Source: Planctomycetota bacterium (lineage in GTDB: Bacteria > Planctomycetota > UBA1135 > UBA2386). Taken from it: a stretch of DNA of 14,058 bases. Positions 1-12,045 of the stretch are shown here, in pieces. The stretch is taken from positions 1-14,058 of the forward strand of contig JAGQRA010000420.1 in NCBI GenBank assembly GCA_020425885.1, read 5' to 3'. A program made the translations under genes and the position numbers. Under the pieces are notes generated by a model. That model made no database searches and was not told the origin of the DNA. It saw only the letters and a list, made by a program, of their open reading frames with translations. Every line of letters begins with the position of its first letter. Position 1 is the stretch's first letter.

Positions 1-706
1 GTCGGCCGAGATGACCAAGTACGCGGCCAACGCGATGCTGGCGACCAAGATCTCGTTCATGAACGACATCGCCAACCTCTGCGAGCGCCTCGGCGCCGAC
101 GTCAACGAGGTGCGCAAGGGCATCGGCAGCGACCCGCGGATCGGCAACCGCTTCATCTATCCCGGCATCGGCTACGGCGGCAGTTGCTTCCCGAAGGACG
201 TCAAGGCGCTGGTCCGGACCGGGCGCGAGAGCGGCTACGAGCTGCGCATCCTGCAGTCGGTCGAGGACGTCAACGAGGATCAGAAGCACGTGCTGGTCGG
301 CAAGATCAGGCAGCAGTTCGGCGACGACCTGCGGGGCCGTCACTTCGCGATGTGGGGGCTCAGCTTCAAGCCCGAGACCGATGACATGCGCGAGGCGCCG
401 GCGCTGGTGATCTGCGGTCAGCTGATCGAGGCCGGCGCCACGGTCACGGCCTACGACCCGGTCGCGATGCCGGAGTGCCGGCACATGATCGGCGACAAGA
501 TCGGCTATGCCAAGGAGGCCTACGCCGCGCTCGAGGGCGCCGACGCGCTGCTGCTCGTCACCGAGTGGCGTGAGTTCCGCGTGCCCGACTGGGATCGCGT
601 CAAGGCGGCGCTGAAGCAGCCGGTCGTCATCGACGGCCGCAACATCTACAGCGGCGAGGAGCTGCGCGGGATGGGCTTCACCTACAGCGGCATCGGAGTG
701 AAGTGA
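1..706 (+). CDS. ugd: UDP-glucose 6-dehydrogenase, C-terminal part (5' end outside window)
   Basis: Oxidises UDP-glucose to UDP-glucuronate with two NAD+ in the cytoplasm, feeding glucuronate and xylose donors to the next gene. The reading frame is already open at base 2 (Ser-Ala-Glu before the first visible Met at 11), so the N-terminal NAD-binding Rossmann domain lies outside the window. Visible are the central-domain motif [10 protein letters not shown] with its conserved Lys, the catalytic-cysteine motif [10 protein letters not shown] (Cys codon at 185-187), and the C-terminal UDP-binding domain with [15 protein letters not shown] and VVIDGRNIY. These are diagnostic for the UDP-glucose/GDP-mannose dehydrogenase family. 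The UDP-glucose assignment is favoured over GDP-mannose by the SCFPKD context and by the adjoining UDP-glucuronate decarboxylase. The stop is 1 bp from the next start, so it is probably co-transcribed and translationally coupled. Nothing looks damaged apart from the window edge. Confidence 0.93.
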
Positions 707-707
707 C

Positions 708-1690
<983 letters not shown>

Positions 1691-1694
<4 letters not shown>

Positions 1695-2719
1695 TGAAGA
1701 AGGTCCTCGTCACCGGCGGTCTCGGCTTCATCGGCTCGCACACCACGGTCGAGCTGCTGCGCAAGGGCTACCGCGTCGTCATCGCCGACAACCTCGCCAA
1801 CACCCGCGCCGATGTGCTCGACGGCATCGAGGCCATCGCCGGCACGCGGCCCGAGTGGGTGAACGTCGACCTCGCCGATCCCGTCGCCTGCGGCGCCTTC
1901 CTCGGCGCGCACCCGGACCTCGACGGCATCATCCACTTCGCCGCCCACAAGGCCGTCGGCGAGTCGGTGCAGATCCCGCTCGAGTACTACCGCAACAACC
2001 TCGGCAGCCTGCTGTTGCTGCTCGACTACCTGAAGCGGCGGCCGCAGTGCGCCTTCATCTTCAGCAGCTCGTGCACCGTCTACGGCCAGGCCGATTCGCT
2101 GCCGATCGTGGAGGACGCGCCGATCAAGCCAGCCGAGTCGCCGTACGGCAACACCAAGCAGATCGGCGAGGAGATCATCCGAGATGGCGCCCGGGCGCAC
2201 GGCTTCCGCAGTATCCTGCTGCGCTACTTCAACCCGATCGGCGCCCATCCATCGGCGCGCATCGGCGAGCTGCCGCTCGGCGTGCCGCAGAACCTGGTGC
2301 CGTTCATCACCCAGAGCGCGGCCGGTCTGCGCGGCCCGCTCAAGGTGTTCGGCAACGACTACCCGACCCGCGACGGCACCTGCATTCGCGACTACATCCA
2401 CGTCGTCGACGTTGCCCTGGCGCACATCGCCGCCATGGAACGGCTGCTCGACGGCCGCGGCGACGAGGCGGTCGAGGTGTTCAACCTCGGCACCGGCACC
2501 GGCTCGACGGTGCTCGAGGTCATCGGGGCGTTCGAGTCGGCGACCGGCATCAAGCTGCAGTGGGATTTCGCCGCCCGCCGCGAGGGCGACGTCATCGCCG
2601 CCTTCGCCGACACCGCAAAGGCTCTCGCCGGACTCGGCTGGAAGGCGGAGCTGCCGCTCGAGCGGGCCATGGCCGACGCCTGGCGCTGGCAGCAGGCGCT
2701 CGGCGCCGAGGCGAAGTAG
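1691..2719 (+). CDS. galE: UDP-glucose 4-epimerase
   Basis: Interconverts UDP-glucose and UDP-galactose (some members also act on N-acetylated sugars) in the cytoplasm, supplying galactosyl donor. The 342-aa length is typical. Visible are GGLGFIG at residues 9-15, the [11 protein letters not shown] stretch at 83-93 characteristic of GalE, SSSCTVYG at 125-132 with the catalytic Ser, YGNTK at 152-156 giving the Tyr152/Lys156 pair, [12 protein letters not shown] at 177-188, and [13 protein letters not shown] at 228-240. The first ATG (1691) overlaps the upstream stop by 4 bp, a coupling arrangement, and GAGGG lies 12 nt upstream at 1674-1678. A second ATG immediately follows and would change the protein by one residue only. 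It sits inside the sugar-nucleotide run, 18 bp before a glycosyltransferase. Substrate range (Glc/Gal versus GlcNAc/GalNAc) cannot be settled from motifs. Confidence 0.94.
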
Positions 2720-2737
2720 CGAAGGGGCTCCCGAGAG

Positions 2738-4159
2738 ATGCGCATCGCGATCCTGTCCTACGAGTATCCGCCCGACACCGGCTTCGGCGGCATCGGCACC
2801 TACAGCTACTACCAGGCCCGGGCGCTGGCGAAGCTCGGCCACGACGTCCACGTCTTCGCCGGCGCCACCACGCCGGGGGTCACCCACAGCGAGCACGACG
2901 GCGTCAAGGTCACGCGCATCAAGCACGAGGGCTGGCTCGACCGGATGCTCGGCGACAGCAAGAAGATGCGGGCGTGGTGGTTCCAGAACCGGCTGACGAC
3001 GGCCTGGAATGCGCACAAGATCCTGCTGCGGGAGCACGACAGAAAGCCGTTCGACTTCGTCGAGGCGCCGGAGTGCGGCGCCGACGCGATGGTGTCGACG
3101 ACGCTGCTGCAGGTGCCGACGGCGCTCAAGTTCCACTCGCCGGCGCGGCTGATCATGGACATCTACGACGTGCCCAAGATCGACCGCGAGCTGACCGCGT
3201 TCGCCGAACAGCTCGGCATCAACCAGGCCGAGGTGCTGACCTCGTGCAGCCGCTTCCTCGCCGACGAGGTGGCGGCGAAGATGCACGAGACGAAGCCGAT
3301 CCACGTCGTCCAGAACGGCATCGACGTGCCGATGTTCGACGCCGACTCTGGCATCGACGTGTTCGCGAAGTTCGGTCTGCCCAGGGACAAGAAGCTGATC
3401 TTCTTCGCCAACCGGATGGAGCCGCGCAAGGGCGTGCACATCCTCAAGGAGGTGGTCGAGCAGACGCTGGCGAAGTACCCCGATATCGCCTTCGTGTTCG
3501 CCGGCCGCGATCTGTTCGGCTGGATGGAGCAGAAGATCCTGCCGTGGGTGAAAGACCACGGCCTGCAGGATCGCTTCTTCTACCTCGGCCAGCTCGGCCT
3601 GGCCGAGGTGCGCGGTTGCCTGAAGGTGAGCAGCATCTTCCTGATCCCGAGCCTTTGGGAGAACTGTCCGTACTCGTGTCTCGAGGCCATGACGGCGGGG
3701 CTGGCGATCGTGTCGTCGGACTGCGGCGGTATGCCGGAGCTGATCGAGGATCATCGCACCGGGCTCCTGGCGACGAACGGCGACCCGTCCTCGTTCGTGC
3801 GCGCGCTGCAGGAGATGATCGAGGACGAGGGGCTGCGCGAACGCTGCGGCGCGGCGGCCCGGGCCGAGGTCGAGAAGCGGCTGACCGACACCGCCATCGC
3901 CGAGCAGAGCGTCGCCGTCTATCGCGGCTTCCTCGACGGCAACCCGGTGGCGACGGAGTCGCAGCGTGAGCGCGTCGAGCGGCTGCTGGCGTCGTCGGCG
4001 GACGGCAGGGGCCGTGGCTCGGTGGAGGTTGCGAATCTGAAGGCCGAGATCGCGGCGCTGCGCGGGCAGATTCGCGGCCTCGAGGGTCGGCGCGAATGGA
4101 GCTGGGGCTCGGCGCTGCTGCACGTGGTGACGTTCGGCGCCAGCAAGCCGAAGCCGTAG
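2738..4159 (+). CDS. GT4-family glycosyltransferase with short helical C-terminal tail
   Basis: Predicted retaining glycosyltransferase of GT-B fold that moves a sugar from a nucleotide-sugar donor to a growing glycan on the cytoplasmic side. The 473 aa begin with the typical GT4 N-terminal fold (SYEYPPDTGFGGIGTYSY, residues 7-24, glycine-rich acceptor-side loop). NGIDVPMF is at 193-200, the donor-domain motif EPRKGVHIL at 228-236, and the EX7E catalytic motif ENCPYSCLE at 308-316, followed by the G-G-M-P-E-L-I segment at 330-336. Residues about 403-450 are an unusual extension rich in Glu, Arg, Leu and Ala, likely a short amphipathic or coiled-coil helix, followed by a Trp/Phe-containing tail ending in KPKP. 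AAGGGG at 2722-2727 lies 10 nt before the ATG. It is 18 bp after galE, so probably the same operon, and converges on the isomerase gene 9 bp away. Donor and acceptor are unknown; the neighbours make UDP-GlcA, UDP-Xyl and UDP-Gal available. Confidence 0.88.
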   Translation: MRIAILSYEYPPDTGFGGIGTYSYYQARALAKLGHDVHVFAGATTPGVTHSEHDGVKVTRIKHEGWLDRMLGDSKKMRAWWFQNRLTTAWNAHKILLREHDRKPFDFVEAPECGADAMVSTTLLQVPTALKFHSPARLIMDIYDVPKIDRELTAFAEQLGINQAEVLTSCSRFLADEVAAKMHETKPIHVVQNGIDVPMFDADSGIDVFAKFGLPRDKKLIFFANRMEPRKGVHILKEVVEQTLAKYPDIAFVFAGRDLFGWMEQKILPWVKDHGLQDRFFYLGQLGLAEVRGCLKVSSIFLIPSLWENCPYSCLEAMTAGLAIVSSDCGGMPELIEDHRTGLLATNGDPSSFVRALQEMIEDEGLRERCGAAARAEVEKRLTDTAIAEQSVAVYRGFLDGNPVATESQRERVERLLASSADGRGRGSVEVANLKAEIAALRGQIRGLEGRREWSWGSALLHVVTFGASKPKP

Positions 4160-5204: not shown

Positions 5205-5936
5205 TCAGACCGTCTCCCACCGCAGCCGCTCCTGTTGCATGATCTGCGAGATGCCGTGGCAGTACTTGCTGATGCGATCCAGGTTGCACTCGTGCCGAGC
5301 GAGCAAGGTGACGAGCCAGTGCGGAACGCGCTCGTTGGCCTTGACCTCCATCACGGCCTTGCCGGCGGGGTAGGCCAGCATCTCCCGCCGAGGCTGCTCG
5401 AGGTCGAAGCTGGCCCGTCGAGTGCGGATCATGGTGTCGAACGTCACCCGCAGGCCCGGATCCATGAAGTACCCTTCCCAGGCCTGGCGGGTGTAGCTGA
5501 TGACGTTCTGCGGGACCAGCCGAAGCGATCGGACGAGGCAGTGGATCTCGTCCGCGACTTCCTGGTCGTCCGGCTCGCTGAGTTCGAATCGCATGTCGCC
5601 GGAACACAGCCGATACGCGTCCGGCAAGGTCATGGCGAGGCGGCGCTTCTGAACGGTGCGGTTGATCCGCTGTTTGATCTCGACGAAGGCCGGAGCGTTC
5701 GGCGCGTCCGGGTAGATCCGGATCCGCAGTTTGCGGCGGAACAGCAGGCCGTCGATCTTGTTGCGGTAGCAGTCGAGTCCCGGCGTGTCGAAGTAGAGGC
5801 TCGCCACCTTGTAGAACCCGGATTCCGTGGAGTGGGGGTCCGGACGCAGGAAGCGCATGAGATCCGGCATCAGGTGGCGCATGCTCGCCGCCGGGATCGA
5901 GTACTTGATCTCGTACCTGTTGAAGCGCTTGATCAC
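5205..5936 (-). CDS. VTC-domain polyphosphate polymerase family protein
   Basis: Member of the VTC family (triphosphate tunnel fold), whose yeast Vtc4 version makes inorganic polyphosphate from ATP. In bacteria these are stand-alone domains often next to CotH and DUF4956 genes. The 243 aa are nearly all domain, with no signal peptide or membrane helix, so cytoplasmic. The basic tunnel residues expected for the family are in order: RYEIKY at 7-12 (Lys11), YFDTP at 48-52, RKLRIRIY at 68-75 (Arg71, Arg73), VEIKQR at 85-90 (Glu86, Lys88), VQKRR at 95-99, SYTRQAWEG at 147-155 (Arg150), RVTFDT at 163-168, VMEVK at 195-199 (Glu197, Lys199) and SKYCHG at 223-228. The start is a GTG at 5934-5936, overlapping the upstream stop (GTGA). 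It must be used, because RYEIKY begins 6 residues later. Polymerase activity is inferred; a triphosphatase or other TTM enzyme is less likely given the full VTC motif set. Confidence 0.9.
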   Translation of the reverse strand: MIKRFNRYEIKYSIPAASMRHLMPDLMRFLRPDPHSTESGFYKVASLYFDTPGLDCYRNKIDGLLFRRKLRIRIYPDAPNAPAFVEIKQRINRTVQKRRLAMTLPDAYRLCSGDMRFELSEPDDQEVADEIHCLVRSLRLVPQNVISYTRQAWEGYFMDPGLRVTFDTMIRTRRASFDLEQPRREMLAYPAGKAVMEVKANERVPHWLVTLLARHECNLDRISKYCHGISQIMQQERLRWETV

Positions 5937-6580
5937 TGGATCAACTCGACTCGTTCGAACTTGAGGCCACGCGATTTGCCTTCGACCATGACCGGGTGGC
6001 TCGCACCGACACTGATCGCGAGGCTCGACCCGGGGGCGACCTTCGGGGTGGTCACCGAGCCCGCCTTGCTGGTGCCGTCGCCGGTCAATGAGAACCAGAC
6101 GGGATCACCACCGATCAGATGGCGCGCCTTGCCGTCGCCAGTGGTCGTGAAATGGAGCGCGACCTGCTGAGGTGCGGGGGTCGGGTTGCGCAGGATGAAC
6201 GTTGCCAGTTTGTTGCCGGCGGTCCAGCCTTCCGCATCGAGGCCGAACGCCCAGATCGTGCCCGGCATGATCTCACGCAGGCCAGCGCCTTCGGCCGACA
6301 CGCCGCTGCGCTCGAGCTCTGCGAACACCTGATCCGCCAGTTCCAACTCGGAGCGCTTCAGCGCCAACTCGAGGGCGCGCCGCAGCCACTGGTCCCGCTT
6401 GTCGGTGTCCGATCCCTTGGCGATGCCGAGCAGGTACCGGGCTTCGCCGACGTCGCGCTCCCGGCTTCCCCAGGGGTGCTCGAAGAAGAAAGGTCGGTTG
6501 ATGTAGTCGAGGAACCAGGGTACCGCGGCCACCGTCAGCAGCAGATAGCCGAAGCCGAGCGAAGGTGGACGAATCCTCAT
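5933..6580 (-). CDS. Unrecognised 215-aa membrane-anchored protein between CotH and VTC genes
   Basis: I do not recognise a family. The protein starts with two Arg residues and one hydrophobic stretch (about residues 9-26, GFGYLLLTVAAVPWFL), an uncleaved signal-anchor or signal peptide that would put the remainder outside the cytoplasm. Residues about 40-105 are charged and helical (EARYLLGIAK, WLRRALELALKRSELELADQVFAELERSG in pieces) and resemble helical-repeat hairpins of TPR type only loosely. Residues about 106-215 alternate hydrophobic and polar positions with many Gly/Thr/Ser and look like a beta-sandwich (TIWAFGLD, LATFILRNPT, VALHFTTTGDG, GLKFERVELIQ). GGAGG on the - strand at 6587-6591 lies 6 nt before the ATG, which overlaps the CotH stop by 4 bp; its own stop overlaps the VTC start. 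Such tight placement suggests a dedicated partner, perhaps an extracytoplasmic adaptor. That role is inference only. Confidence 0.82.
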   Translation of the reverse strand: MRIRPPSLGFGYLLLTVAAVPWFLDYINRPFFFEHPWGSRERDVGEARYLLGIAKGSDTDKRDQWLRRALELALKRSELELADQVFAELERSGVSAEGAGLREIMPGTIWAFGLDAEGWTAGNKLATFILRNPTPAPQQVALHFTTTGDGKARHLIGGDPVWFSLTGDGTSKAGSVTTPKVAPGSSLAISVGASHPVMVEGKSRGLKFERVELIQ

Positions 6581-9303
6581 GACCCGCCTCCGGTGTGGAG
6601 CACCGCGTCGAGGTTCGCCGGCACCGTGGACAGGCTGTCGTGGGTTACCGCCTTGCCCTTGCTGTTCCAGATGTTGAGGGCATCGGCCTGGAGGGTGCCG
6701 CCGCGGCTGAAACGTTCGTTCTTGCGATACAGGTTGATGCCGGTGCCGCAGGCATCGATGACAGTCGAGCCGTCGAGGGCGGCGACGCTGCCATCCTTGA
6801 TCTCGACACCGATCACGCAGTTGGCGAAGCGCGAGTCCTTCAGGGTCAGGGTCGAGCCCTCGCCGACCGAGATACCCTTGTCGCCGCTGTTGGTGAATCG
6901 GCACTGCCTGACCTCGACTCGCGACGCCATCAGGTCCAGGCAGTCGTTGCCGCTGTTCTTGAACTCGCAGTTCGAGATCACCATCCCCTCGCTGATGTCG
7001 ATGTCGAGCGCATCGCTCCTCGCGCCGTCGAAGATGCAATCCCTGATCGCCACTTCGGCGACGTAGCCCCAGTGCATGGCGTCGTCGCCGATGTGGTTGA
7101 CGCCGATCTGCGAATGCTCGAGGACGATGTCGCGGGTGTCGATCACGCTGACCATGCCCGAGCGGATCATGAGATCGTGTTCCACGATCGATCCACCGTG
7201 CCACCGACAGTGGCTCATCCTGCTGCCGGCGGTGCCCTGCCCGTGCAGCAGCATCACGCCCCACGGCTTGTCGGCCGCAAGCGGTTCGAACACGATCGGC
7301 GCATCCTCGCGGCCGACCGCCATCACCTTGCCGAAGCAGAGCAGGCTGACGGCGGGGGCGAGCTTCACGGTGGTCCCGGGCGCGAAGGTGACGGTGGTCT
7401 CGGGGCCGAATCGGCGTGACGAGGTGAACTCGACCGTGCCGGGCCCGAAGGCGACGAACTGCGTGGCCGGCGGCAGCGGCAGATCCCACGGGTGGGTCGA
7501 GAACGGTTCGATCGATGGCGGCAGTGACTTCACACGGCGCGCCTCGACGGTCGAGCCGGTCACGGCGTTCTTGGTCGCCAGCGACGACACGTCCTCCACG
7601 CTGCCATCGCAGCGGAGGAAGTAGCGGTAGTGCAGAGGGGTCGGCGCCAGGTCGAAGTGTCCGTAGAGCTGCGGCATCGGATTCCAGGTCGGGACCTTCC
7701 TCAGACCCGGGAACAGCAGCTCGTGGATCGCGATTCGGGTCGATTCGCCCTCGAGGCTGGCCTCGGCCACCACCGGATCCGCGGCGTCGAGCCGACCGTT
7801 CCTGTTGCGGTCCTGCACGAGTTCGAGATGGCCGGTGCCGCGCACCGTCAGCGCCGTGAGCTCCTGTGCGGCATGGCCGAGGGCAGCGATCTCGAGTTGC
7901 CCGGTCGGGCCGCGTGAGAAGTCGAAGTCGCACCCGGCGTCGTCCAGGTCCTTCATGACCCCCGCGTGCAAGGTCTCGAAATCCCGCTTCCTGCTCTCGG
8001 CCTCGCCGAGGAACTCGTCGATGCCGAAGTAGACGCACGGCACGAGGTGGAACTGGAGATCGCGCATCGCCGGCCAGTCACGGTGATCGCGTTGGGCGTC
8101 GGCTTTGAGGGCCGGCAAGATGCTCGCCACCAGCTCGTCGAGCCGGTCGGCCATGACGGTCGGGGTGAACCAACTCGTCAGCTCGTGCAGCTTCCGCTGC
8201 AGTCTGAACTCGAAGTCGGGGTGCCGTTTGAGTGCCGTGAGCAGCGGGTACTCCGTCGCATCGAAGCTCTTCTGCTTGTAGGCGAAGCCCCAGTCGCCGA
8301 AGTCCCACTGGATCGGTTCGAAGCGCCCCTTGTAGGGATCGAAGTAGACCTTGTGGTTGTGGTTGTAGTCGTGATGTCGGCCGGCGAAGAGTCGGTCGAT
8401 CGCGATGTAGCTGGCGTAGGCGTCGAACGCCATGTGGCGCTCGGCGAAGTCGTGGAACGGGACGGGGTCGCCGTTGATGGCGCCGATCAGAGCTTCGATG
8501 TCCGTCCGGTTGGCCGCCTGCTCCGCGTTCCGCGCCGACACCTTGTCCCAGAATCTGGCCTCGCGAAACATGCTGCTCACCCCGTCGGGGCCGACCGGGC
8601 CGGTCTCGCCCTGGTAGATGCTGCCCGGCATCCGCCCCTTCAGGCGCAGCAGCGATTCGTCGGCCTGGTCCCAACGCAGGTAGAGGCCGCCGTAGGTTCC
8701 GTTGAGCATGAACTTGATCGGCTCCACCTCGGGTGTGAGCACACCCAGCTCGGCCGACAGGCGGGTGATCATGGTCTCGCTGATCGCGAGTCGGCTCGGC
8801 GGGTTCTTCAGGTTGAGGGCGGATCGGTTACGGAACGGGGCGCCCTTCTTGGTCTTTATCCGCCAGGACTTCTGCGGGAACAGCCAGTGCCAGTGGTTGT
8901 CACCCATGTAGCGGACACTGACCGGCATCCGCGCGTCGTTGGTCTCGAACAGCGCCGGTTGATAGCCGCTGTCCTTGCCGCTCTTCGGCAGATCGGCGTT
9001 GAGGCTCGCCAGACAGTGCCCGGGGACCGTCAGTGAGAAGGCCTCGAGCCCGTCGTCGGTCGGCATCCGGGGCGCGAACAGATCGGCGAGGTCCTCGCGA
9101 AAAGCATCGCGGGCGAAGTAGCGCCATTGCTCGATGTGCGGCGGCGGCGGCGACCCCCAGAATCCCGCCTTGCGCCCGAGCAGCTTCTCACCCGAGAGCA
9201 CACCCTGGAATGCGATCCAGCCGACGAGGATCTGCAGCGGCAAGGCCACGACGAGCGCGTACCGCAACGGAATGCGCCAGAGCCGGCTCAGGATGCGAAG
9301 CAT
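6577..9303 (-). CDS. CotH kinase-like protein with C-terminal parallel beta-helix
   Basis: CotH-family proteins are atypical kinases (spore-coat CotH phosphorylates coat proteins); many bacterial members are extracytoplasmic with unknown substrates. The 908 aa start with four Arg in the first 14 residues and a hydrophobic helix at about 15-35, a type II signal anchor placing the enzyme outside the cytoplasm. The CotH domain spans about 125-460: MPVSVRYMG at 126-134, FPQKSWRIKTKKG at 142-154 (the Lys-rich segment expected near the nucleotide), LRWDQADESLL around 209-219, AIDRLFAGRHHDYNHNHKVY at 301-320, and PIQWDFGDWGF at 330-340 with the Asp334/Asp337 metal-type motif. DRNRNGRLDAAD at 498-509 is an EF-hand/dockerin-like calcium loop. 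From about 615 to 860 the chain shows repeated short beta strands and N/S/G turns (NCEFKNSGND, QCRFTNSGDKG, DSRFANC), typical of a right-handed beta-helix. The ATG is 1 bp after the DUF4956 stop. Substrate unknown; the beta-helix suggests glycan or surface binding. Confidence 0.9.
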   Translation of the reverse strand: MLRILSRLWRIPLRYALVVALPLQILVGWIAFQGVLSGEKLLGRKAGFWGSPPPPHIEQWRYFARDAFREDLADLFAPRMPTDDGLEAFSLTVPGHCLASLNADLPKSGKDSGYQPALFETNDARMPVSVRYMGDNHWHWLFPQKSWRIKTKKGAPFRNRSALNLKNPPSRLAISETMITRLSAELGVLTPEVEPIKFMLNGTYGGLYLRWDQADESLLRLKGRMPGSIYQGETGPVGPDGVSSMFREARFWDKVSARNAEQAANRTDIEALIGAINGDPVPFHDFAERHMAFDAYASYIAIDRLFAGRHHDYNHNHKVYFDPYKGRFEPIQWDFGDWGFAYKQKSFDATEYPLLTALKRHPDFEFRLQRKLHELTSWFTPTVMADRLDELVASILPALKADAQRDHRDWPAMRDLQFHLVPCVYFGIDEFLGEAESRKRDFETLHAGVMKDLDDAGCDFDFSRGPTGQLEIAALGHAAQELTALTVRGTGHLELVQDRNRNGRLDAADPVVAEASLEGESTRIAIHELLFPGLRKVPTWNPMPQLYGHFDLAPTPLHYRYFLRCDGSVEDVSSLATKNAVTGSTVEARRVKSLPPSIEPFSTHPWDLPLPPATQFVAFGPGTVEFTSSRRFGPETTVTFAPGTTVKLAPAVSLLCFGKVMAVGREDAPIVFEPLAADKPWGVMLLHGQGTAGSRMSHCRWHGGSIVEHDLMIRSGMVSVIDTRDIVLEHSQIGVNHIGDDAMHWGYVAEVAIRDCIFDGARSDALDIDISEGMVISNCEFKNSGNDCLDLMASRVEVRQCRFTNSGDKGISVGEGSTLTLKDSRFANCVIGVEIKDGSVAALDGSTVIDACGTGINLYRKNERFSRGGTLQADALNIWNSKGKAVTHDSLSTVPANLDAVLHTGGGS
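6587..6591 (-). promoter_or_regulatory. Strong Shine-Dalgarno (GGAGG) deciding the start of the 215-aa protein
   Basis: Read on the - strand, GGAGG is placed 6 nt before the ATG at 6578-6580, inside the last codons of the CotH gene. It fixes the start of the small protein and argues against the much longer open frame that continues upstream antisense to nothing and in another frame of the CotH gene. Confidence 0.7.
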
Positions 9304-9304
9304 C

Positions 9305-10000
9305 TCACAGGTCCATCTGCTGGTGGCCTTCGATCAGGCTCACCTTCTTCTGGCCGGTCAGTTCGCGAACCCGCTGGAAGAACGGGCCGCTCTCGAACTT
9401 GCTCGGCAGCGTGATGCTGTAGACGAGCTGCACCGTCTTGGCCTCGGGCAGGGTCTCCATGCTGATCAGGAAGTGCTCGCGAAAGCTCTTGCGGAACAGT
9501 TCGCCCAGCAGCTCCTCGTGCTTGACCCCGTCGTCGACCTCGACCATCAGGATGCGTTCACGCACCGTGCGGGCGAAGAAGTTCAGGTAGTACATCAGCA
9601 GCACGAACATGGTGATGACCACCGTCGCGAACACGGCCATCAGGTAGAACTTGGTGCCGACCGCCATGCCGATCGCCATCGCCCAGAAGACGAAGCCGAC
9701 ATCGCGGCTCTCCTTGACGGCGTTGCGGAAGCGGACGATGGAGAGGGCGCCGACCAGCGAGAATGCGCGCGCGATGTTCGAGCCGATGATCAGCATGATC
9801 ACGGCGACGATGACGCACATCATCACGTAGGTCTGCACGTTCGACTGCGAATACGAGATCCCCTTGTGGGTGACCTGGTAGACCTTGCCGATGATCAAAG
9901 CCAGGATGAAGGACAGGAACAGCACGATCGCGATCTCGATCGGGTTGAAGATCGCGCCCTCCTGGACGGCAGACCATTCCTTGACGAACTGTTCAAACAT
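9305..10000 (-). CDS. DUF4956 integral membrane protein
   Basis: Member of the uncharacterised DUF4956 membrane family, commonly beside VTC-domain and CotH genes. From the chosen ATG (10000) the protein is 231 aa. Likely membrane helices lie at about 22-42, 58-78, 102-118 and 119-141. Between them is the family signature GALSIVRFRNAVKESRD (84-100), a basic/acidic loop resembling the GALSIVRFRT motif of MgtC-like proteins. Residues about 145-231 form a soluble alpha/beta tail that includes EVDDGVKHEELLGELF and ends in EGHQQMDL. The frame stays open upstream to 10210 but is Pro/Arg/His-rich there, with no membrane or family features, and no convincing ribosome site precedes either candidate start. 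The family usually begins just before the first helix, so I chose MFEQF. It is the first gene of the tight cassette. Function unknown; a channel or scaffold role for polyphosphate is a hypothesis only. Confidence 0.88.
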   Translation of the reverse strand: MFEQFVKEWSAVQEGAIFNPIEIAIVLFLSFILALIIGKVYQVTHKGISYSQSNVQTYVMMCVIVAVIMLIIGSNIARAFSLVGALSIVRFRNAVKESRDVGFVFWAMAIGMAVGTKFYLMAVFATVVITMFVLLMYYLNFFARTVRERILMVEVDDGVKHEELLGELFRKSFREHFLISMETLPEAKTVQLVYSITLPSKFESGPFFQRVRELTGQKKVSLIEGHQQMDL

Positions 10001-10284: not shown

Positions 10285-12045
10285 CTACGGCTTCTCGTAG
10301 TAGTACCAGCCGTTGCGGAGGTCGATCGGAACCGTCCTTGGGATGGCGCGGATCAACTCGTCGCCGCGGAAGTGCAGGTCGAGGTAGGCCAGTGGCCGCT
10401 CACCCCGGAACATGAAGCCGGTGGTGATGTAATAGGTCCCGTTTGGAGCGACGCAATGTCCGGCGAGTCGCTTGTAGATGTCGCCGAAGAACACGTACTT
10501 CACGCGGCCGTCGAGCAGCGGCAGGACGTCGGTGTTCCAGTTGCTGTAGCCACCGTACGGCTTGTTGGGATCGACGCCCGGCGGGCACTCCGACACCGGA
10601 CGGTAGCGATAGCTCATCAGGTGGGTCAGGAAGAACGTGTTGGCCACGTCGGCCGAAGGGGTGAAGGCCCGGTCCAGATAGGCCAGATCATCGGGGCTGT
10701 AGACCTCGCGGTAACCGAACAGCACGAACCGGTTGCGTCCGATCACGACCTGGTTGTTGCGCACGTCCCCGGCGAGTTCCTCGAGCACCGGCAGCTTCTC
10801 GATCCGCTCGTGGTTGCCGCGGATCATGTGCAGCTGGGCGTGGATGCGAGTGAAGTGCTTCTTGACGATCGCCCACTCGTCGGCGGAACTCGGCTCGAAG
10901 ACATGATCGCCGAGCGCGAAGACGTGATCGAACTCGAGGCGGTTGAGCTCGTCGACGAAAGCCGAGATCAGCTCCTCGGTTTCGATCCGGCCGTCGTCAT
11001 GGTTGTCGATGTGCATGCTGTAGGCGTGTCCCCACAGCGCCATCCTGGTGATCCCCTCCTGCTTCTCGTCGGGCAGTGACCAGACGACCTTGCCGGCGGC
11101 CGGCCCCGATACTTCGGGCTCCGGCAGCCAATCGCCGGGGGCAGCACGGGTCGCGCCGTTGTCCCAGCCGGGGTGGAACTTGAACCACGGGTGTCGGACG
11201 TCGAGCGGGATCGCGCGCGGCAGGATGCCGGTCAGCTCGTCGCCATCGAACCGCAGTTCGACATAGAGCCCAGGGCCGCGGTAGCCGCTGAAGTGGAAAC
11301 CGGGGCAGAAGTAGAACAGGTCGGGGGCCTCGGCACGGCGCGGAACCACATGGGTCGACAGCATCGCATCGTTCGTCTCGCCGCAGAAGACGTAGCGTAC
11401 GCCGTGCTCCTTCAGGATCGGCACCACGTCCCGGTTCCAATTGCTCTTGTCGTCGTCGAGCTCGAACAGCCGCGAGTGCGTCATGACGAAGGTGTTGGCG
11501 CGCGACTCGTGTTCGCTGCAGGCCGACCCGAGGAACTGCAGGTCTTCGGCCGAGAACATGGTCCGGTTGTCGAGCAGGACGAACCGGTTCCTGCCGACGT
11601 CGACCATGCGGTTGGCGGCGCCGCCGCCGGCAGCCTCGTATCCCGGAAGGGGGCCGCGATCGAGGTCGCCGCGGATTAGGTGCACCGCGGCGGTGCTACG
11701 TTGCAGGTGCTTCTGGCATGCCTGCCACTGCCATGAGTTGCCGGGCCGCGCGTGGTCGCCGAGGCCGAACACGTGGCTCGCTCCGCTGCGATCGATCGCC
11801 TCGTCGAATGCGTCCCAGACGTCTTCCGAGGGGCCGCCCCCGGGCGCGAGATTGGTGAGCAGGCTGGATCCGGAGCCGTAGACGATCATGCTCGAACGCG
11901 AGCTGTTCCGAGCAGACGCAGCAGCGGCGGGGCCCGGACGCTCCTGGCCACACGAAGAGGCGAGGAGCATCGAAACCGCGATGCAGCAGTGCAGGCCGGT
12001 CCTCAACCTGAAGCCCAGGCCCGGAGGCGTCGCTCGTTCGATCAT
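10285..12045 (-). CDS. Putative lipoprotein with two tandem metallophosphoesterase-like modules
   Basis: The 586-aa protein has an N-terminal secretion signal (Arg4, Arg13, Arg15, then a hydrophobic run) ending in LLASSC with Cys32, a relaxed lipobox, so it is probably membrane-tethered and extracytoplasmic. Two homologous modules follow, about 52-290 and 332-580. They share GLGDH/ALGDH, GRNRFVL, ANTFVMTH/ANTFFLTH, SNWNRDV/SNWNTDV and GDELTGILPRAIPLDVR/GDELIRAIPRTVPIDLR. Module 2 keeps calcineurin-like motifs (GDH at 379-381, RGNHER at 409-414, His475), while module 1 has RGDLDR in place of RGNHE. Neither has a standard DxH first motif; module 2 has WGHAYSMH at 338-345. The start is the last ATG that leaves a complete signal; the frame is open for 97 more codons upstream without protein-like features. 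No clear ribosome site precedes it. Substrate is unknown; it may oppose the kinase-like enzyme encoded downstream. It could also be non-catalytic. Confidence 0.78.
   Translation of the reverse strand: MIERATPPGLGFRLRTGLHCCIAVSMLLASSCGQERPGPAAAASARNSSRSSMIVYGSGSSLLTNLAPGGGPSEDVWDAFDEAIDRSGASHVFGLGDHARPGNSWQWQACQKHLQRSTAAVHLIRGDLDRGPLPGYEAAGGGAANRMVDVGRNRFVLLDNRTMFSAEDLQFLGSACSEHESRANTFVMTHSRLFELDDDKSNWNRDVVPILKEHGVRYVFCGETNDAMLSTHVVPRRAEAPDLFYFCPGFHFSGYRGPGLYVELRFDGDELTGILPRAIPLDVRHPWFKFHPGWDNGATRAAPGDWLPEPEVSGPAAGKVVWSLPDEKQEGITRMALWGHAYSMHIDNHDDGRIETEELISAFVDELNRLEFDHVFALGDHVFEPSSADEWAIVKKHFTRIHAQLHMIRGNHERIEKLPVLEELAGDVRNNQVVIGRNRFVLFGYREVYSPDDLAYLDRAFTPSADVANTFFLTHLMSYRYRPVSECPPGVDPNKPYGGYSNWNTDVLPLLDGRVKYVFFGDIYKRLAGHCVAPNGTYYITTGFMFRGERPLAYLDLHFRGDELIRAIPRTVPIDLRNGWYYYEKP
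10306..11892 (-). repeat. Internal duplication: two metallophosphoesterase-like modules in one protein
   Basis: Residues about 52-290 and 332-580 of the lipoprotein align block by block in the same order (GDH, GRNRFVL, ANTF..TH, SNWN.DV.P.L, YVF.G, GDEL...PR..P.D.R). The similarity is clear at protein level but not as a long DNA repeat, so the duplication is old. Module 1 has diverged at metal-binding positions. Confidence 0.8.

Follow-up and report, generated by a model that had tools for sequence, protein, structure and literature searches.

In streptococci, clostridia and bifidobacteria, genes for CotH, a poly-phosphate polymerase and a DUF4956 protein are described as contiguous with pel genes (Whitfield 2020, PMC7112168). 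In Streptococcus intermedius, each of SIR_1592-1594 has been deleted singly (Raju 2025, PMC12345266). In that study, cells grown in sputum medium are reported to lose more than half of their aggregation when either the DUF4956 or the CotH homologue is deleted, and Pel is raised in the DUF4956 deletion and reduced in the CotH deletion. No phenotype is reported there for deletion of the VTC homologue, and the authors state that they did not find the trio arrangement outside the Pel locus (PMC12345266). For the CotH family, the D228Q variant of Bacillus subtilis CotH is described as inactive (PMC7821199).

The window analysed here, a stretch of 14,058 nucleotides from a Planctomycetota bacterium, carries a four-gene cassette on its minus strand. 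The genes encode a DUF4956 membrane protein (9305..10000; 231 aa, ATG start; Pfam DUF4956, PF16316), a CotH-family protein (6577..9303; 908 aa, ATG start; Pfam CotH plus beta-helix), a 215-aa protein (5933..6580; ATG start) and a VTC-domain protein predicted to be a polyphosphate polymerase (5205..5936; 243 aa, GTG start; Pfam PF09359). A single base, 9304, separates the DUF4956 and CotH genes, CotH and the 215-aa gene share ATGA (6577-6580), and the 215-aa and VTC genes share GTGA (5933-5936). This layout of four minus-strand genes, first described in a sequence-only reading of the same DNA, was reproduced by reading the strand and by a separate codon-model gene caller, which returned the identical four genes with identical ends. 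The earlier reading also saw in it the arrangement of proteins made in fixed ratio; gene overlaps alone do not imply this. The cassette is flanked by sugar-nucleotide epimerases, glycosyltransferases, a phosphomannose-isomerase-like gene and a calcineurin-type phosphoesterase. On the plus strand, positions 1-4159 hold a row of sugar-nucleotide genes (two epimerase/dehydratase family proteins) and a GT4 glycosyltransferase, resembling an exopolysaccharide locus. The phosphoesterase (10285-11889) is encoded upstream of the cassette, likewise on the minus strand; to the eye, one half of the protein is a repeat of the other (VFGLGDHARP / VFALGDHVFE), and none was seen beside the cassettes of relatives. 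The closest relatives of the window are Planctomycetota or bacterial metagenome-assembled genomes, with 68-69% identity in VTC.

Across the genomes sampled, VTC and DUF4956 hardly ever occur without each other. The phylum samples were not chosen by VTC similarity, and the co-occurrence probabilities ignore the relatedness of genomes; with that reading, each family was found in 40 of 149 Planctomycetota genomes and both in 38, against 10.7 expected. With DUF4956 matches restricted to those above the Pfam cut-off, 37 genomes remain, 35 of them shared with VTC. All 16 Actinomycetota genomes with VTC also had DUF4956, and the reverse (n = 149), and in Pseudomonadota (n = 200) the counts were eight for VTC (seven over the cut-off), seven for DUF4956 and seven for both. 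Among 14 control genomes, the two families occurred in the same three, those of Bacteroides ihuae, Corynebacterium glutamicum and Methanosarcina acetivorans; the C. glutamicum genome had CotH as well. In Planctomycetota, CotH was present in 44 of 149 genomes; 37 of these are among the 40 VTC-containing genomes (11.8 expected). Two negative controls in the same phylum stayed near expectation: PPK1, the usual bacterial polyphosphate kinase, was found in 83 of 149 genomes and in 23 of the 40 with VTC (22.3 expected), and PelG in 18 of 149 and in 7 of the 40 (4.8 expected).

The association extends to gene order. A similarity search with the window VTC yielded 80 loci, a sample biased by that choice of query; DUF4956 adjoined VTC in all 80, CotH was present in 79 of them, and 67 had the layout VTC-DUF4956-CotH on one strand. 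Sixty further loci were fetched from 79 VTC places in three phyla (40 in Planctomycetota, 14 in Actinomycetota and 6 in Pseudomonadota). In this phylum sample, DUF4956 was beside VTC in 56 of 60, on the same strand in 56 of 56, and CotH was present in 42. Likewise, 41 of 51 Planctomycetota VTC matches had DUF4956 within 5 kb, every one on the same strand; this analysis used 51 of 52 VTC matches (a fragment of the same G141 gene was left out) and all 50 DUF4956 matches, and the number of CotH genes it gives, drawn from contigs of interest among the matches listed, is a minimum. We therefore consider it very probable that VTC and DUF4956 form an obligate-looking pair with CotH as a frequent third partner.

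Tree distances of VTC and DUF4956 were correlated over 55 loci (r = 0.73; L209 left out), and within seven multi-copy genomes the true pairing ranked first of 1,536 re-pairings. Correlations with CotH over 41 loci were lower, at 0.30 for VTC and 0.18 for DUF4956. Because linkage alone can yield such a fit, the co-variation of VTC and DUF4956 favours joint inheritance over contact. One genome, G003, has four VTC-DUF4956 pairs (L167, L177, L205 and L206), three of them with a beta-helix CotH, and L195 and L204 have four to five CotH genes in tandem beside one pair. In L209 the VTC and DUF4956 frames are interrupted by one TAG and one TGA, which may reflect pseudogenes, assembly errors or recoding. 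A protein of 550-590 aa with a thymidylate-kinase-like P-loop domain adjoins VTC in L186, L189, L193, L195, L197 and L204. Response-regulator-like genes flank 40 of the 80 VTC-similarity loci (L001-L080), mostly in Actinomycetes; a histidine kinase cluster is seen as well.

The 215-aa gene does not share this distribution. It is present in the window, at L001-L003 (L003 and L167 being one place) and in three database proteins besides itself. At the corresponding spot, L168 has a 189-aa protein that is a weak possible relative; a 365-aa protein at that spot in L173 was rejected as a relative on comparison. The protein had no Pfam match at E values up to 0.1 and no NCBIfam match. Its model, built from seven sequences (pLDDT 86.4), has a membrane helix (8-27), a helical part (40-91) and a beta-sandwich (101-213), with weak matches to jelly-roll or carbohydrate-binding-module-like folds at TM-scores of 0.34 or less. 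CotH lies on the opposite strand in L001-L003 and inside the operon in the window. The proposal that the four genes form one fixed machine was therefore abandoned, given the restriction of the 215-aa gene to the window, these three loci and three database proteins, a small planctomycete clade. Of the four-gene co-occurrence expected from it, the part concerning VTC, DUF4956 and CotH stood in our neighbourhood survey and the part concerning the 215-aa gene did not: the conserved core is three genes, and the fourth is clade-specific.

The VTC protein matches PF09359 at E = 2.8e-44 (151.9 bits against a cut-off of 23) and has no predicted membrane segment. A profile (A2) built from 61 bacterial VTC proteins, namely 60 of 76 non-redundant proteins plus that of the window, matched Vtc4 of yeast at 1.2e-30 and gave lower scores to Vtc2 and Vtc3. 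We take the Vtc4 catalytic set to be K200, R264, R266, K281, K294, Y359, R361, E426, S457 and K458; equivalents of all ten are present in the window protein. Across the 61 rows, seven of the ten are found in 61 or 57 sequences, and the equivalents of K200, Y359 and S457 in 55. Residues K69, R71, Y75, K88, K97, R150, D167, E197, K199 and K224 are invariant in the 61. Judged by its residues, the window protein appears to be an intact Vtc4-type domain and is a predicted polyphosphate polymerase. The polyphosphate label would be misleading if the protein were a triphosphate-tunnel enzyme of another kind, acting on a different substrate or yielding a different product, as a tripolyphosphatase or a nucleotide cyclase-like enzyme would. 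Distant relatives in the triphosphate-tunnel family vary in chemistry, and we found no assay of any bacterial VTC in the open-licence literature; set against these points, the preference of the profile for Vtc4 and the full catalytic set make such an enzyme very unlikely. None of the four cassette proteins matched an SPX or VTC1-type membrane domain in Pfam at E values up to 0.1. A PHO4 phosphate permease adjoins VTC at one locus, L225.

The DUF4956 protein matches PF16316 at E = 7.9e-16 (58.7 bits against a cut-off of 30.6). The sequence-only reading had missed a weak match to MgtC (PF02308; 5.7e-6, 27.1 bits, below the cut-off of 31.4). The model has five membrane helices and a C-terminal domain that appears ACT-like, and Foldseek and VIA matches covered only this C-terminal domain. 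The cytosolic loops are basic and carry an R90-F-R92 motif in which R92 is invariant. A profile of the family (A1) found no match among solved membrane proteins, and neither Pfam nor profile searches showed kinship to the yeast VTC membrane domain, so that a channel role has no backing from homology. These features also suit a reading in which DUF4956 regulates VTC: as an MgtC-like sensor in the membrane, it would respond to a small molecule through its ACT-like domain, and polyphosphate would be kept inside the cell as a store or signal. Both the MgtC-like transmembrane match and the apparently ACT-like domain speak for it, and obligate pairing would suit a regulator equally well. The presence of PPK1 in more than half of the VTC genomes, however, means that many of these genomes would hardly need another store inside the cell, and the genes beside DUF4956 in its relatives point outwards, as does the mostly exported CotH. 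We regard the regulator as a doubtful alternative.

In 12 of the 60 phylum-sample loci (11 in Planctomycetota, 1 in Pseudomonadota), the strand of DUF4956 also carries a gene for an HlyD-type adaptor, at a distance of 26-131 bp; the type was checked with Pfam in two of the twelve and confirmed in both. HlyD-type adaptors serve an inner-membrane transporter. In the VTC tree, these loci account for 12 of the 14 members of one clade, and one of the two exceptions, L182, is a contig that ends just past DUF4956. A TolC-type outer-membrane efflux protein (OEP) follows HlyD in L171, L175 and L176, the three loci whose proteins built the OEP profile and the only ones in which it was seen. No other recurring transporter was found near DUF4956 among 25 of the 59 families listed and the 41 of 51 neighbour ORFs scanned, and ABC genes were present, by our reading, in L171 only. 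In the window, a Pfam scan of ten ORFs showed neither HlyD nor OEP. Our search of the open-licence literature found no paper on HlyD beside DUF4956 or on the VTC-DUF4956 pairing. The earlier proposal that a separate polytopic DUF4956 protein supplies the membrane crossing for a soluble VTC domain is thus upheld in part: the pairing is general, and the HlyD and OEP neighbours of relatives fit a membrane-crossing role.

On balance, we favour a cassette that makes polyphosphate inside the cell and passes the polymer outside, a reading to which we give an evenly divided verdict. In it, soluble VTC would polymerise phosphate from ATP at the cytosolic face, as its conserved residues suggest. The MgtC-like DUF4956 protein, with invariant arginines on its cytosolic side and a putative ACT-like regulatory domain, would then carry the polyanion across the inner membrane; in some relatives the HlyD adaptor and the TolC-type channel may take it on through the envelope, polyphosphate being their presumed cargo. 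CotH would work beyond the cytoplasm, its target being either the exported polymer or polymers of the cell surface. Synthesis and export are supported by the conserved VTC residues, by the HlyD and OEP genes of relatives and by the polar layout. The reading is weakened by the silent VTC deletion reported for S. intermedius (PMC12345266), and by the confinement of HlyD to a fifth of the loci, the window not among them. It is weakened further by the 4 of 60 loci in which VTC lacks DUF4956 (L185, L186, L189 and L193; in L186, L189 and L193 the thymidylate-kinase-like P-loop protein is present), by the 18 of 60 without CotH, and by the lack of any VTC-DUF4956 fusion, there being no fusion among VTC, DUF4956 and CotH genes in 140 loci.

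The window CotH matches PF08757 over residues 140-406 (E = 3.4e-25, 89.7 bits against a cut-off of 23.8) and the CotH structure in PDB 5jd9 at 1.2e-8. It has an N-terminal hydrophobic segment and, overlooked in the sequence-only reading, a right-handed beta-helix at residues 736-862 (Pfam, 7e-16). The beta-helix is a fold common among polysaccharide-binding proteins. N-terminal hydrophobic segments were found in 100 of 112 CotH proteins, against 433 of 1,270 other genes and 13 of 112 shuffled sequences; by type, 13 of 18 beta-helix CotH proteins had one and 87 of 94 others, the 18 counting L003 and L167 separately although both are one place. Thirteen of the 60 loci have a beta-helix CotH (L177, where the beta-helix is a separate protein, was not counted), and nine of these share with the window the order DUF4956-CotH-VTC, which was found in Planctomycetota and Pseudomonadota. 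The equivalent of B. subtilis D251 is D334 in the window, and is Asp in 16 of 18 beta-helix CotH proteins and 92 of 94 others. The D228 column, by contrast, is gapped in the window. The loop sequence there is RHHDYNHN: His takes the place of the Asp of other CotH proteins, and an Asp comes one or two residues later. The loop motif H-x5-N is present in 16 of 18 beta-helix CotH proteins and in 0 of 94 others. From the alignment, it appears that either His replaces the catalytic Asp in the window protein or the Asp is shifted by one or two residues. We found no paper on beta-helix CotH in the open-licence literature.

One extension of the make-and-export reading, which we consider decidedly improbable, would have exported polyphosphate serve as phosphate donor for extracytoplasmic CotH, which would phosphorylate surface proteins or polysaccharides. 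With no ATP outside the cell, CotH would draw its phosphate from the polymer made by VTC and exported by DUF4956, and the beta-helix CotH with His for the catalytic Asp could be a polyphosphate-adapted form. If this were true, the MgtC superfamily would gain a molecular function.

The published occurrence of the trio beside pel genes (PMC7112168) suggests another role, that of an exopolysaccharide accessory module in which CotH phosphorylates matrix or synthesis proteins and VTC and DUF4956 adjust phosphate supply. The changes in Pel level and aggregation reported for the DUF4956 and CotH deletions (PMC12345266) are in keeping with this, as are the sugar-nucleotide and glycosyltransferase genes flanking the window cassette. 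Yet a PelG profile search found PelG in none of 140 loci, so no fixed tie links the trio to Pel; the genome-level link in Planctomycetota was at chance, neighbouring genes otherwise vary, and we consider the accessory module unlikely. Four sequences went into the profile; that of L165 was a 247-aa translation in the wrong frame, and the correct L165 frame was still matched at 2.3e-127. In all seven genomes with both, PelG and VTC lie on different contigs, the assemblies being fragmented. The Pfam scan of ten ORFs of the window likewise revealed no Pel family. A Pel-locus origin of the sampled loci was rejected on the absence of PelG from them together with the chance-level genome count.

Taken together, these data show that the trio also occurs away from Pel loci, contrary to the impression in print. 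The VTC-DUF4956 pairing bears on how bacteria may export polyphosphate, on what bacterial VTC proteins do and on the function of MgtC-type membrane proteins, and makes all three questions directly testable in C. glutamicum, a harmless laboratory species with genes for VTC, DUF4956 and CotH.

Compared with described systems, the window shares its three neighbouring families with the Gram-positive pel accessory genes CotH-PPP-DUF4956(-DUF4832), which likewise comprise a secreted CotH, a DUF4956 protein of four transmembrane segments plus an ACT domain, and a VTC-type polymerase. It differs in having no pel genes, in the order DUF4956-CotH-VTC, and in the beta-helix on CotH, the extra orphan gene and the altered CotH catalytic loop; its relatives, moreover, have HlyD and OEP. 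In NELoc-2 of Clostridium perfringens, VTC, CotH and membrane proteins of about 222-226 aa labelled tubulin/FtsZ adjoin (PMC2879425), and we infer that the latter are DUF4956 proteins; order and neighbours are different there, and the genes are not treated as a system in that paper. With the Bacillus spore-coat kinase CotH, the window protein shares the CotH domain and the retained D251 equivalent, whereas it has an N-terminal hydrophobic segment and a beta-helix, and in its subtype the D228 equivalent is replaced or displaced. Like the yeast VTC complex (Vtc1-4), the window couples its polymerase to a membrane part, and the catalytic domain is of the Vtc4 type and keeps the active-site residues. 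Unlike that complex, it has no match to an SPX or VTC1-type membrane domain, its membrane partner is a separate MgtC-like protein and its kinase-like partner is exported. Finally, the window DUF4956 protein resembles MgtC (PF02308) in joining a transmembrane domain to what may be an ACT-like C-terminal domain, but it scores below the MgtC cut-off, and DUF4956 is genetically tied to VTC.
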